A stretch of DNA of 64,000 bases from Corallococcus macrosporus (GTDB taxonomy: Bacteria; Myxococcota; Myxococcia; Myxococcales; Myxococcaceae): the NCBI RefSeq assembly GCF_017302985.1, contig NZ_JAFIMU010000017.1, positions 496,001 to 560,000 on the forward strand, in the 5' to 3' direction. Position numbers and translations under genes: made by a program. Of the stretch, positions 21,360 through 44,915 are shown piece by piece. The notes below the pieces were generated by a model. The model saw nothing but the letters and a program-made list of their open reading frames with translations, did no database searches and was not told the DNA's origin. Numbering within the stretch: position 1 is the first letter of the stretch; each line of letters opens with the position of its first letter.

Positions 21360-22349
21360 CTACTCCCGCCGGCGGCGCCAGAGCCGCAGCGTGGCGAGGA
21401 GTCCCAGCATCGTCAGGCCTCCTCCCGCCTGCGTGCAGCCGCCTTTGGATGGATTGCTGATGGGCTCCACATCCTGAGTGCCCGCGTCTGGCGTCCCCGC
21501 GTCCACGGACTGCGTGGCGCAGCTCAGCTCGAAGTCCACGCTCAGCGGCGGCAGCTCGATGCTTGCGTGCTCCAGCGTCCCCTTGAGCGTCGCCTGGTGG
21601 CGCCCCGGCGTGAGGCCCAGGCCGGGCGGCGACGGGTTGCCCGGCGTGCAGACCGTGTAGAGGAACAGCAGCTGCCGGTTGTACTCGTACTGGTGGCTCT
21701 CGTAGTTGTCCGCGCCCGTCGACGTCAGCCCGTGGTGATTGCTGAAGGACCAGGGCTGGCCGTCCACCTCCACCGTCCAGTGCACCCACGGCAGGAAGGG
21801 CACCAGCTCCGCTGACGGCGTGAAGCGCAGCGTGGTGGAGTCGCCCTCCTGGGGGCTCCCGCAGTTCGCGTCTCCGTACACCGCGAACGTCCCCCGGCTC
21901 GGCGTGTCCGCGCTCAGCGTGCCCAGGGTCGTGGGCAGGGGCCGCTCCGGGCCCGCGGTGAAGGTCGCGGACTGCGTCTGCGTCTCCTGGTGCTGGCAAT
22001 TGCCCTTCGCTTCGATGCGGTACTGCGTGCCCGGCACGAGCGGCGCCTTGGGCACCACGACATGCGTCGCGCGAGCGCCGTTCGCCAACGTGAAGGGCAC
22101 CGGCGTGCCGTCCGACTGGAGCAGCCGGAGGGTGGAGACATCCGTGTTCTCCAGCAGCGGCGGCCTCACCACCAACCCGGGGACGTTCGCGGGAACCGTT
22201 CCCCCGTCCTCGGGGAGCGGGAAGCGAACGTCGATGAGGCAGTTGGGCGCGACGCAGGCCTCCGCCGACGGGGGCGCGAGCATCCCCGCCCCCAGGAGGA
22301 ACATCCCCACCGCGCCCCATGTCCAAGCGTGTCCGTGCATTTGCTTCAT
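21360..22349 (-). CDS. MYXO-CTERM-like exported protein, third of three tandem paralogues
   Basis: This 329-aa exported protein has an N-terminal signal segment (WGAVGMFLLGAGML), then PSAEAC at the probable cleavage site. The body has Ig-like strands shared with the two upstream genes (VPANVPGLVV, APLVPGTQYRIEAKG, LVPFLPWVHWTVEVDGQPW). The C-terminus GGCTQAGGGLTMLGLLATLRLWRRRRE has the Cys, hydrophobic helix and Arg cluster of MYXO-CTERM sorting signals, which anchor proteins at the myxobacterial surface. The ATG at 22349 is chosen by alignment with the first paralogue; 22340 is possible. It follows the second paralogue by 33 bp. Confidence 0.85.
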   Translation of the reverse strand: MKQMHGHAWTWGAVGMFLLGAGMLAPPSAEACVAPNCLIDVRFPLPEDGGTVPANVPGLVVRPPLLENTDVSTLRLLQSDGTPVPFTLANGARATHVVVPKAPLVPGTQYRIEAKGNCQHQETQTQSATFTAGPERPLPTTLGTLSADTPSRGTFAVYGDANCGSPQEGDSTTLRFTPSAELVPFLPWVHWTVEVDGQPWSFSNHHGLTSTGADNYESHQYEYNRQLLFLYTVCTPGNPSPPGLGLTPGRHQATLKGTLEHASIELPPLSVDFELSCATQSVDAGTPDAGTQDVEPISNPSKGGCTQAGGGLTMLGLLATLRLWRRRRE

Positions 22350-22382
22350 CAGACACCGGGGCCCGGCGCAGTGGGACATCGC

Positions 22383-23351
22383 TCAGGAACGGCGCCGCCA
22401 GAGCCGGAGCGTGGCGAGGAGCCCGAACGCCGTGAGGCCTCCGCCCGCTTGCGAGCATCCGTCATCACGCGGGTCTTCGGGCCCGATGTCTGGCGCGGGG
22501 GCGGGCTCCTCCTGGGGGCACGCCAGCTCGAAGGAGACCTCCATGGGCGGAAGCGGCGTGCCGGACTGCTCGAGCACCGGGCGCAGCGTGGCCACATGCC
22601 TTCCCGAGGGAAGGCCCTGGTCCGAAGGCGACTGCTCATTGGGCAGCACCTGGCAGACCGAGTAGACGATGAGCAGGTCATGCGCGTACGCGAACCGGTT
22701 CGGGGGCATGACGTTGCCCGCGGCGTCCACCGCACCGTGCGGCGCCGTGGCCCAGGTCTGCCCATCCACCTCCAACGTCCAGTGCACCCACGGGAGGAAC
22801 GGCACCAGCTCCGGCGAGGGCGTGAAGCCCAGCGTCACCTGGCGGCCTTCCACGCCCACGGAGCAGGTCGAGCCACCCCAGACCTGGAAGGTCGCCTGCT
22901 GCTCCGGAGCCGCTCGCAGGGTGCCGGACGTCGCAGGCAACGTGACCGCCGGACCCGCCGTGAACGACACCTCCGCCGTGCCGGGCTCCTGCGGATAACC
23001 TGCGCAGAGGTCGCGGGCCTCCAGGCGATAGCGGGTCCCAGGAACGAGTGGCGCGGCCGGAACGACGAGCCCGCTCCGGTGGGGACCTGTCAGGAAGGTT
23101 GCCTCCACGTCGGCGCCGTCCTCCGTGCGCAGGCTCAGGTTCTCGGATTCCATGCCGTACAGGGGCGACGGCAGCACCACCAGGGCCGGCACGTTCGCGG
23201 GCACGACCGCGTCCGAGGGCAGCGGGGCGCTGAACTTCGTGGGGTCGCACACGGGACCGCCGCACGCCTCCGCGGAAGGGGGCAGGGCCAGTCCCCCTCC
23301 CACCATGAACGTTCCCACCGCCACCAGGGCCTTCCATTCACGAGTCGTCAT
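22383..23351 (-). CDS. MYXO-CTERM-like exported protein, second of three tandem paralogues
   Basis: This 322-aa paralogue of its two neighbours shows PSAEACGGPVC after the signal peptide, VPANVPALVVLPS, PLVPGTRYRLEARDLC, LVPFLPWVHWTLEVDGQTW, and a C-terminal GCSQAGGGLTAFGLLATLRLWRRRS sorting tail. Paired Cys residues suggest disulphides in an Ig-like exported fold. The ATG at 23351 follows CAAGGTC and overlaps the stop of the upstream paralogue (ATGA), so the two are translationally coupled. The function of the family is not known to me. Confidence 0.85.
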   Translation of the reverse strand: MTTREWKALVAVGTFMVGGGLALPPSAEACGGPVCDPTKFSAPLPSDAVVPANVPALVVLPSPLYGMESENLSLRTEDGADVEATFLTGPHRSGLVVPAAPLVPGTRYRLEARDLCAGYPQEPGTAEVSFTAGPAVTLPATSGTLRAAPEQQATFQVWGGSTCSVGVEGRQVTLGFTPSPELVPFLPWVHWTLEVDGQTWATAPHGAVDAAGNVMPPNRFAYAHDLLIVYSVCQVLPNEQSPSDQGLPSGRHVATLRPVLEQSGTPLPPMEVSFELACPQEEPAPAPDIGPEDPRDDGCSQAGGGLTAFGLLATLRLWRRRS

Positions 23352-24391
23352 GACCTTGAGACACGCGAGCCCCGCACGTTGGGACAGGGGCATGGGGTCC
23401 GGCGGCGCCAGAGGCGGAGGGCCGCCAGCAGGCCCAGCACCGACAGGCCGCCTCCGGCCTGCGTGCATCCCTTGGCCTTCACTGGAACCTCGTCATCCGG
23501 ACCGGAGCCTGTGCCGGGGCCCGGGCCGTAGCCGCCGTCGCCGCCGGTGTGAGGGCAGTACACTTCGAAGGCGACCTCCAGCGCGGGCAGCGCGGTCCCT
23601 GCTTGTTCGAGCACCGGGCGCAGCGTGGCCGTGTGCGGGCCCTCGGAGACGCCCCTGGCCGAGGCGGGCATGCCGGGGGGCTCGTTGTCACAGAGCGTAT
23701 AGACGGTCAGCAGGTCCCGCATCGTCCTGAACCCATCCGCGGGCCTGGCACCGCCGCTGGCGTCCACCGCGCCGTGCGGAGCCGTGGCCCATGTCTGTCC
23801 ATCCACCTCCAGCGTCCAGTGCACCCACGGAAGGAAAGGCACCAGCCCGGGGGCGGGAGTGAACTCCAGCTTCGCCCACCCGCCCGTGTAGTTCGCCGCG
23901 CAGGATGCGCCGCCGTCCCAGACCCTGAGGATTCCTGCCTCACGGTCTCCCATTTTCAGCACGCCGGTCGCCGTGGGCAGCCCGACAGCCGGGCCCGCGG
24001 TGAAGTCCGCCATCGCGACGAAGGGCTGTCCCGTGCGGCCTTCGGAGCAGGGGACGCTGCCCTCCAGGCGGTAGCGCGTTCCGGGAACGAGCGGCGCGGC
24101 CGGGACGAGGATGCCACTGTTGTCTGGACCCTTGAGGACGCGGGCCTCCACGCCGGTGCCGTCCTCCGTGCGCAGGCGCAGGCTCTGCTCCTCCACCCAT
24201 TCATAGGCAGGCGGCACCACCACCAGGGCGGGCACGTTGGCCGGGACGATCGCGTTCGGGGGCAGGGGAACGCGGCTGCCCTCCACGCTGCACAGGGGGC
24301 GCCCACACGCCTCCGCCGAGAGAGGCCTCACCAGGCCAAAGCCTCCCAGGAACACTCCAATTGTCAGGGCCGTCCATCCGCATGTCTTCAT
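23348..24391 (-). CDS. MYXO-CTERM-like exported protein, first of three tandem paralogues
   Basis: This 347-aa protein is first in transcription order. The signal peptide is MKTCGWTALTIGVFLGG followed by PLSAEAC. The body matches the paralogues (VPANVPALVVVPP, PLVPGTRYRLEGSVPC, LVPFLPWVHWTLEVDG). The sorting tail GCTQAGGGLSVLGLLAALRLWRRR is followed by 16 extra residues read from what is leader sequence in the paralogues. The stop appears to have been lost after duplication, creating the overlap with the next gene. Those extra residues could affect processing of the tail. The ATG at 24391 follows CAAGGGCC. Confidence 0.85.
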   Translation of the reverse strand: MKTCGWTALTIGVFLGGFGLVRPLSAEACGRPLCSVEGSRVPLPPNAIVPANVPALVVVPPAYEWVEEQSLRLRTEDGTGVEARVLKGPDNSGILVPAAPLVPGTRYRLEGSVPCSEGRTGQPFVAMADFTAGPAVGLPTATGVLKMGDREAGILRVWDGGASCAANYTGGWAKLEFTPAPGLVPFLPWVHWTLEVDGQTWATAPHGAVDASGGARPADGFRTMRDLLTVYTLCDNEPPGMPASARGVSEGPHTATLRPVLEQAGTALPALEVAFEVYCPHTGGDGGYGPGPGTGSGPDDEVPVKAKGCTQAGGGLSVLGLLAALRLWRRRTPCPCPNVRGSRVSRS

Positions 24392-24517: not shown

Positions 24518-25663
24518 ATGCGACGCAAACTCGTGCTGCTGGTGCTGGCCGTGGCGGTGTGGCTGCCATCACTCCAGTTCCTGTTCCGGCCCCGGAATCC
24601 AGAGGCCCTGGCCGCGGCACTGGCCTTCCGCCAGCGCACGTTCTCGCTTCAGGAGCAGAGCGCGGACCGAGACGTGCTCCAGCGCACGAACCCGGAGTGG
24701 GACCTGATGGTGCGCACCTTCTCCGCGTTGTCGTTCGCGAACCTCGCGCTGTCGGAGCCCGCGCGAAGGGCGGAGCACCTGGCCGTGGTGGACGCGCTCA
24801 TCGCCCGGACGCGGCGCGACGAACGACGGGCACACGATGCCTTCTTCCTGCCCTACGTGAGCGCGGGGGCTTTCAAGGACCCCGCCGGGCGCAGCCTCTT
24901 CGTGGACGGTGAGCTGGCGTTGATGCTCGCCGCGCGCCAACTGGTGGAGCCGCGCTCGGACTACGCGCCGCTCCTGCGCGAGCGCGTGGACCTCATCACC
25001 GGACAACTGGAGCGGGCGCCGGTGCTCGCGGCGGAGAGCTATCCCGACGAGGGCTGGACCTTCTGCAACACGGTGGCGCTCGCCGCGCTGCGCCTGTCGG
25101 ACAGGGTGGATGGGCGGGACCACGGGGCACTGCTGCGCCGGTGGGTGGCCTCGGCGCGGGAGAACCTGTCCGACAGTCGGACAGGTTTGCTCGTGTCGAG
25201 CTTCACCTACGACGGCGTGACGAAGGACGGACCCGAGGGCTCGACGCTGTGGCTCGCGGCGCACATGCTCCAGGTGGTGGACGCGGACTTCGCGCGCGAC
25301 CAGTACCAGCGTGCACGCGCCGCGCTCCTGGGACAGGCGCTGGGCTTCACGTGGGCGGGGGAGTGGCCCGAGGCGCAGGCAGTGGCGGTGCAGGACATCG
25401 ACTCCGGGCCCACGATTCCGTGGGTGAACGCGAACGCGGGTTCCAGCGGGCTCGCGCTCGTGGGCGCGGCGGCGTTCGATGACGAGGAGGCGCTGGACGG
25501 GCTGCTCACCAGCCTCCACTTCGCGGCCTTCCCCGTGCATGACGACAAAGGCCTGCGCTTCGCGGCGGGCAACCCGCTCGCGGACGCGGTGCTGCTGTAC
25601 GCGCTCGTCGAAGGACCCCTCTGGCGCCTCGCGCAGGCGCCGCGGCTGGAGGCACACCGATGA
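24518..25663 (+). CDS. Membrane-anchored alpha/alpha-barrel-like protein (linalool dehydratase/isomerase-like, tentative)
   Basis: This 381-aa protein has one N-terminal hydrophobic anchor (LVLLVLAVAVWLPSLQFLF). The rest is helical with repeated aromatic/acidic motifs: FVDGELALMLAARQLV, ESYPDEGWTFCNTVALAAL, and GLLVSSFTYDGVTKDGPEGSTLW. The ordering recalls the linalool dehydratase/isomerase-like alpha6/alpha6 fold, recognised from memory without a search. The ATG at 24518 follows TGCCGGGC, a weak ribosome site. Codons for residues ENLSDSRTG are written by a perfect copy of the 25-bp palindrome found in the array near 36 kb. The stop overlaps the next gene (ATGA). Confidence 0.65.
   Translation: MRRKLVLLVLAVAVWLPSLQFLFRPRNPEALAAALAFRQRTFSLQEQSADRDVLQRTNPEWDLMVRTFSALSFANLALSEPARRAEHLAVVDALIARTRRDERRAHDAFFLPYVSAGAFKDPAGRSLFVDGELALMLAARQLVEPRSDYAPLLRERVDLITGQLERAPVLAAESYPDEGWTFCNTVALAALRLSDRVDGRDHGALLRRWVASARENLSDSRTGLLVSSFTYDGVTKDGPEGSTLWLAAHMLQVVDADFARDQYQRARAALLGQALGFTWAGEWPEAQAVAVQDIDSGPTIPWVNANAGSSGLALVGAAAFDDEEALDGLLTSLHFAAFPVHDDKGLRFAAGNPLADAVLLYALVEGPLWRLAQAPRLEAHR
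25163..25187. repeat. Palindrome copy inside a coding sequence
   Basis: This is a perfect copy of the 25-bp palindrome: arm AACCTGTCCGAC, a central A, then the complementary arm. Here it lies wholly within the gene at 24518-25663 and encodes part of ENLSDSRTG without interrupting the frame. It is identical to array copies 1 to 3 and to the copy at 44891. Confidence 0.95.
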
Positions 25664-35715: not shown

Positions 35716-36822
35716 GCACCCTGACGTACCCCATTCCCCTCAAGTGAGCGAGGACCGCGCACCGCGCCAACGGCCACGGGTTGAACGAGGGAGCCCCCCG
35801 GTGCGCACCGACCCGGCCCGCCTCCACAGAGCCTGTCCGTGAGTGGCCCCGGTCCGCGGCGCACCGCGCGAACCTGTCCGACAGTCGGACAGGTTTTGGG
35901 CTACCGCACCGGGCGCCCCTGCGCTGACACGCTCCGGCTGGCGTTCCCCGGGCCTGCCTCGTCACCCACCGTGGCCGGGCTTCTCCAGCCAGGGAGGATG
36001 AACCTGTCCGACAGTCGGACAGGTTTGGGACCACCGCACCGAGCCCCCTGTGCTGACGTACCCGCGCTGGCTTTTCCCGCGCATGCCTCGTCGCCCACCG
36101 TGGCCGGAGGCTTCTCCAGCCAGGCAGCGGAAACCTGTCCGACAGTCGGACAGGTTTGGGGCCACCGCTCGCCAAGGCCGGTGCTGACGTATCCCCGCTG
36201 GCGTTCCCGGGCCTGCCTCGTCACCCACCGTGGCCGGGAGGCTCCGGTTTCGTCCAGGCAGCGGGAACTGGTCCGACAGTCGGACAGGTTGGGGCCACCG
36301 CTCGCCAGGCCCTGAGTTGGCGAACTTCCGCTGGCCTCCTCAATCGAGCCCGCCTCGTCACGCTCGATGGCCGGACCGCTTCCGTTCCCTCCAGGCCTCG
36401 GAAGCCGGTCCGACAGTCGGACCGGTTTGGACCACTGCGGTAGGTCCCTTGCGCCGACGCGCTTCCGCTGGCGGTCCCCGTGGATCTGCTTCGTCATCCA
36501 CTGCTGCCGGGAGGCTTCCGGTTCATCCCAGCAGCGGGAACTGGTCCGACAGTCGGACAGGTTTGGACCCGGCGCGGGCCGACCCTGTGCTGACGAACTC
36601 CGCCGAGGTTCTCCACCGGGCCAGCCCCGTCACGCTTGGTGGCTGGGAGGTTTCCGTTTCAACCATGCAGCTTGAACCTGCCCGACAGTCGGACAGGTTC
36701 TTCATCCGAGAGGCTGAACGTGGATGCGCAGGAGCAGTTCGCGGAGACCTGACCCGGTGTCTGGCAAGGGGCACCGGATGCGGCTTCGGTGGTGTGCCGC
36801 TCCGTGCCTTTCATGGCGGGCT
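35716..36822. other. 1.1-kb intergenic region holding the palindrome array
   Basis: There is no credible gene here. The open frames that cross it change with unit length (130 to 137 bp) and encode only the repeat read in different frames. Positions 35871-36699 are the tandem array described separately. The flanks 35716-35870 and 36700-36822 show no clear promoter or hairpin. The region lies upstream of the barrel-protein gene and downstream of the ECF operon, all on the minus strand. Confidence 0.8.
35871..36699. repeat. Tandem array of seven palindrome-bearing repeat units
   Basis: Seven copies of a 25-bp palindrome (arm AACCTGTCCGAC, a central A, complementary arm) start at 35871, 36001, 36132, 36266, 36403, 36539 and 36675. 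Spacing is 130, 131, 134, 137, 136 and 136 bp. Copies 1-3 are perfect; copies 4 and 6 have AACTGG in the left arm; copy 7 has one C for T; copy 5 is changed on both sides to keep pairing. The spacers are also homologous (TTGGG-CCACCG, TGCTGACG, GCCTGCCTCGTC-ACC, GTGGCCGG, CCAG) but diverge far more than the palindromes. As RNA each copy would form a 10-bp stem with loop ACAGU. Confidence 0.95.
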
Positions 36823-44890: not shown

Positions 44891-44915
44891 AACCTGTCCG
44901 ACAGTCGGACAGGTT
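44891..44915. repeat. Solitary copy of the 25-bp palindrome
   Basis: This is a perfect copy, flanked by A on the left and TTTT on the right. It lies 33 bp beyond the stop of the M16 protease gene (minus strand) and about 90 bp upstream of the next minus-strand gene. In this position the hairpin, followed by TTTG when read on the minus strand, could terminate the protease transcript. Confidence 0.95.

Follow-up and report, generated by a model that had tools for sequence, protein, structure and literature searches.

An exact 25-bp palindrome, AACCTGTCCGACAGTCGGACAGGTT, lies at positions 25163-25187 of a 64-kb stretch of the Corallococcus macrosporus genome (the window), in frame within the ORF 24518-25663. 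The codons GAG AAC CTG TCC GAC AGT CGG ACA GGT TTG are read there as E N L S D S R T G L. Position, frame and codons confirm what a sequence-only reading of this DNA had reported, and the palindrome is no artefact. As the 25-mer contains no stop codon in any of its six frames when read directly, the open frame by itself says little about how well the palindrome fits the gene. The informative fact at this site is rather that the gene and its orthologues are of equal length.

A palindrome family dispersed in Corallococcus

As listed in Table 1, the window holds nine copies of the palindrome (five exact and four with one to three mismatches), where 0.00 were expected by chance. The site of the lone intergenic copy (44891..44915) carries one mismatch in the relatives G002 and G011, and no palindrome is aligned with it in G003, G005 and G013. 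In the whole C. macrosporus genome we counted 112 sites with at most three mismatches to the entire palindrome and 76 sites with at most one mismatch to its 18-base core; other Corallococcus genomes contain between 6 and 285 copies each at the three-mismatch threshold. The backwards control pattern gave no site with at most three mismatches in the Corallococcus genomes, that of C. macrosporus included. These matches make the 25-mer a member of a REP-like palindrome family dispersed in Corallococcus. A literature search returned no description of this palindrome family in Corallococcus. Two further observations concern the window as a whole: no known RNA family was detected in its 64 kb, and three tandem paralogues on the minus strand (21360-24391) have a C-terminal segment resembling MYXO-CTERM (CTQAGGGL..LGLLATLRLWRRR), one of them with a weak NF041936 match under the cut-off.

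Table 1. Host gene and palindrome copies in the 64-kb window
Feature	Position	Strand	Evidence or codons
Host gene, 381-aa linalool dehydratase/isomerase-like (Ldi) protein	24518..25663	+	PF18566, E 7e-9; orthologues
In-frame exact 25-bp palindrome	25163..25187		AAC CTG TCC GAC AGT CGG ACA GGT T(TG)
Exact intergenic copy opening a 7-copy array with spacings of 130-137 bp	35871..35895		
Exact intergenic copy, same 7-copy array	36001..36025		
Exact intergenic copy, same 7-copy array	36132..36156		
Variant copy, 2 mismatches, same array	36266..36290		
Variant copy, 3 mismatches, among them a compensated pair change from T-A to G-C (CCGGTCC...GGACCGG), same array	36403..36427		
Variant copy, 2 mismatches, same array	36539..36563		
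Variant copy, 1 mismatch, same array	36675..36699		
Exact lone intergenic copy between two minus-strand genes	44891..44915		

The consensus derived from 226 sites is (R)AACCTGTCCGAC[A/T]GTCGGACAGGTT(Y), with a stem of 11-12 bp and a loop of 1-3 bases, and at these sites no conserved tag or tetranucleotide, GTAG-type included, was found beside the palindrome. Compensatory changes occur in both arms, as expected of a constraint on pairing: of the double changes, 37 are paired and 14 unpaired, in tallies that count related copies more than once. In another genus of the same bacterial family (g8), a variant, AACTTGTCCAACWGTTGGACAAGTT, with two compensated pairs is present in up to 45 copies. The g8 genomes G081, G087, G093 and G075 contain 5-45 copies of a compensated sister family, AACTTGTCC[A/G]AC[A/T]GT[T/C]GGACAAGTT. 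Outside Corallococcus, a record from Hyalangium versicolor has a lone exact copy (L076:3598-3622).

Some palindromes carry a repeated tail of ~80-117 bp that is found at many other loci (e.g. L015:1496-1624). A longer element as the repeating unit was considered and rejected: the tail is variable and missing from the in-gene copies, so that the palindrome is the common unit. At L004, L009, L010 and L011 a second common motif, approximately TCCATGTCAGACCCC..TGGTTGGATG, was noticed within ~100 bp of the palindrome.

The sequence-only reading had argued that the palindrome is probably not a pure terminator, and an intrinsic transcription terminator is indeed scarcely credible. A 71-nt RNA with the palindrome folds into a strong hairpin (-49.9 kcal/mol, z -8.3), but it lacks a T-tract (GGTTTGCTCG), a scan gave no terminator-like site, and copies are found midway in long coding genes, seven of them within a single NRPS ORF.

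Among 95 sites examined in the C. macrosporus genome, 88 are intergenic and 7 lie in ORFs, although the coding share of the DNA there is ~86%; these numbers are based on gene calls by a simple codon-usage ORF finder rather than an established annotator, with several low-scoring predicted ORFs that contain copies (L097, L156, L167, L100) set aside as probable mispredictions. The 40 intergenic regions with copies comprise 28 between tandem, 9 between convergent and 3 between divergent genes, with fewer divergent ones than their proportion of intergenic length (p = 5e-4) or of the number of intergenic regions (p = 0.02) would give. Spacings within arrays peak at 65-74 and 130-140 bp. Adjacent array palindromes are 89% identical and their spacers 72%, a comparison in which the detection threshold favours similar palindromes and which therefore points only mildly to constraint or homogenisation. 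At two intergenic sites (A and C), the palindrome is present in some species and not in others. At site A the species differ by a gap of ~25 bp, as an insertion would give, and the intergenic spread may thus work differently from the entry into genes. Within one branch of Corallococcus, the family would have gained its copies chiefly in intergenic DNA.

In-frame copies and their orthologues

Orthologues of Ldi are present in 12 of the 16 Corallococcus genomes, including that of C. macrosporus. Across 20 Ldi orthologues we found no indel at the palindrome site, which occupies the same columns throughout. The orthologues of Corallococcus clade A differ from the palindrome at 0, 2, 2, 2, 3, 3, 4, 4 and 8 positions (8 in G007), those of three sister species outside this clade at 13-14 and those of three other genera at 10-11. 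The protein motif HLxDxRTGLL is present in the other genera without the palindrome and predates it. A search of orthologues for the residues without the palindrome had been proposed in the sequence-only reading, and the result, with the motif in the same columns, fits its suggestion that a protein motif permitted the capture of a DNA site. Its alternative suggestion, an element that inserts or converts into genes and leaves them open, stands as far as conversion and the open genes are concerned, whereas plain insertion is contradicted by the indel-free orthologues. The alignment shows that the Ldi copy is not an insertion.

The final T of the palindrome, in the codon TTG, is unique to the C. 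macrosporus genome, and all other orthologues have a C (CTG). As the TTG codon is found in this genome only, one or more of the changes that led to the exact palindrome are recent, unless the T was lost everywhere else. The clade-A tree is star-like and poorly resolved, with the direction of change taken from tip states only, so that an origin in a single step and one in several steps are not separable. Congeners share nearly the same codons by descent, which is one half of what had been named as evidence against a mobile or selected element. The other half, a lack of further genomic copies, does not apply: with ~100 other copies in the genome, the Ldi copy is no isolated accident.

Could the Ldi palindrome have arisen by chance, the codons for L-S-D-R-R-T-G-L spelling a near-palindrome that drift then made exact in this genome? 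CTG TCC GAC are common codons, the motif is known in other genera, differences within clade A are mostly synonymous, and relatives hold forms with 2-4 mismatches by descent. Nevertheless, the sequence that is matched exactly has ~100 further copies in the genome, and the pattern is repeated in the monooxygenase and NRPS genes described below. Chance alone is unlikely because the backwards control gave no coding match with fewer than 7 mismatches in 0.85 Mb. Codon convergence by chance is retained as an explanation, albeit a rather improbable one.

A second in-frame copy was found in the gene for an FAD aromatic monooxygenase (PF01494). In five species, C. macrosporus included, the codons AAA CCT GTC CGA CTG TCG GAC AGG TTT form an exact 27-base palindrome, from which a sixth species differs by one base. 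The corresponding sequence of G002, AAG CCG TTC CGC CTG TTC GAC GCG TTC, has 8 mismatches, and those of six other species have 11-12, all at equal length. The residues K-P-x-R-L-x-D-x-F are largely retained across the two states. Codons ending in A or T account for 43% of the palindrome codons and for 10% in the gene. Within the nine codons, a single base varies among the six palindrome-bearing species, where the mean is 7; since equally low variation is seen in 20 of 503 windows, conservation of this copy at the DNA level is only suggestive.

The third case concerns a loop before the A3 motif (NLAYVIYTSGSTG) of an NRPS adenylation domain. Seven species have codons like GAA CGC GAG CGG CTG TCC ACC CTG CCC there, with 10-12 mismatches to the palindrome, and in G010 the loop contains the exact palindrome at the same length as in palindrome-less species. 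Two copies are present in G000, G003 and G009, and an NRPS ORF on the minus strand (L122:2295-2700) has seven copies just before the A3 motif in steps of 57/60 bp that keep the frame, where its orthologues have none, one or two. In contrast to the single copy, the arrays add length, in the same 57/60-bp steps. The order read from these alignments would be an equal-length replacement first and duplication in frame-keeping 57/60-bp units later. The pre-replacement state matches the palindrome at 12-14 of 24 positions only, so that guidance by homology would be weak at this site. In low-coding-score regions, one to three in-frame copies were also seen in each of the PKS ORFs L154 and L078, where KS and KR domains flank them, and in L244, an ORF with similar peptides.

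Plain insertion of a mobile REP, in the manner of the Rickettsia palindromic elements, would agree with the ~25-bp difference between species at intergenic site A and with the multi-copy in-frame arrays in the NRPS and PKS genes. However, length was not gained at the Ldi, monooxygenase and single-copy NRPS sites, at two of which 6 of the 9 residues match a pre-existing motif, and a search for the Y1/RAYT transposase (PF01797) was negative in all 16 Corallococcus genomes, with positive controls. For the in-gene copies, we consider insertion very unlikely. Equal length in three unrelated genes, with the old state preserved in living relatives, shows by comparison that coding sequence was replaced at the Ldi, monooxygenase and NRPS sites rather than interrupted by an insertion. 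The in-gene copies belong to the family, keep the frame and the conserved residues, and are restricted to one branch of the genus.

Possible origin of the in-gene copies

In the account we favour, at close to even odds, the palindrome took the place of partly matching coding sequence in Ldi and the two other genes, in register and through a copying mechanism that we infer. Either a short strand derived from the repeat or template switching at a stalled fork would anneal to a partial match and overwrite it. Arm-to-arm (quasipalindrome) correction may then restore symmetry and could explain the final steps to a perfect palindrome. Protein function would filter the surviving events, as NLSDSRTG fits HLxDxRTGL and KPVRLSDRF fits KPxRLxDxF, and it is unlikely that the encoded peptide brings a new function by itself. 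More tentatively, we propose that the palindrome spreads into genes by templated, RAYT-independent, length-neutral overwriting, by which unrelated proteins gain the same short peptide, and that in the NRPS domain the captured unit is subsequently amplified into a tandem array that keeps the frame. Neither a copying enzyme nor an intermediate was found. Two sources were examined and rejected: retrons, as the best match to the palindrome at 28 RT loci had 8 mismatches and none held a copy, and phages, with no match in IMG/VR.

The same alignments are predicted by the main rival of overwriting, in which a DNA site is selected step by step. The palindrome would be bound by a dimeric protein that organises the chromosome or regulates genes, and point mutations completing near-matches would be favoured, as in uptake or Chi-like motifs. 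Such selection would account for change at equal length, for the existing intermediates with 2-8 mismatches, for palindromes being more conserved than the array spacers (89% versus 72%) and for the near-perfect conservation of the monooxygenase copy, although the latter is only suggestive, as described above. It fits less well with 25 nearly invariant positions, far above what a protein site needs, with the scarcity of single half-sites beyond those within palindromes and with a copy number that varies from 6 to 285 inside one genus. Half-sites of the DNA uptake type were rejected, single arms being too few. Taken together, we regard selection for a DNA site as fairly unlikely.

The best, but unproven, reading is that the family is REP-like and unusual in how genes capture its copies, and the feature worth following is its length-neutral entry into genes. 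In-gene REPs tend to be interpreted as insertions, and the multiplication of REP-like repeats that lack a transposase is still to be explained. With three genes in one genus and both states in living species, a conversion or template-switch route is directly testable. The three genes also show a way in which unrelated proteins can obtain the same short peptide without insertion, and with the arrays in the NRPS loop there is a further case of a biosynthetic enzyme whose length varies through a repeat.

Comparison with known systems

DNA uptake sequences and Chi-like motifs are 8-12 bases long and occur as very many single copies. Like the in-gene copies described here, they arise in coding sequence without a change in length, but the unit in Corallococcus is a 25-bp palindrome. 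Short-patch double illegitimate recombination, in which chromosomal sequence is overwritten at microhomologies by short single strands from the same genome, resembles the overwriting of genes proposed for the palindrome. It is known from experiments with other bacteria and is not known to be tied to a repeat family.

REP and BIME elements with a RAYT (GTAG REPs, REPINs) resemble the Corallococcus family in being short palindromes with tens to hundreds of copies, mostly intergenic, with few between divergent genes, regular arrays and occasional in-gene copies (PMC3733652). The Corallococcus repeat is likewise a short, mainly intergenic palindrome of high copy number. It differs from GTAG REPs by the lack of a GTAG edge tag and of a Y1/RAYT gene (16 genomes), by its stem of 11-12 bp and loop of 1-3 bases, and by single in-gene copies that arose by equal-length replacement. 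In-gene REPs are known from both the GTAG and the CGTC families, Rickettsia elements included, as insertions inside ORFs (PMC3733652). CGTC families have no dedicated transposase and are characterised by a CGTC tag, stems of 8-9 bp, loops of 4-5 bases and rare clusters (PMC3733652). Those including Rickettsia RPE-4 and RPE-6 share with the Corallococcus family in-frame copies in genes and the lack of a known dedicated transposase (PMC3733652), but the CGTC tag, the 8-9-bp stem and the 4-5-base loop are not found in Corallococcus. As tag, stem-loop and transposase agree with neither group, the Corallococcus family is not filed as a GTAG or CGTC member, although it works like a REP. In-gene copies of CGTC REPs are described as interruptions or insertions, and the in-frame length that Rickettsia-type elements add is absent from the Ldi, monooxygenase and single-copy NRPS sites, where the single copies of Corallococcus are replacements.
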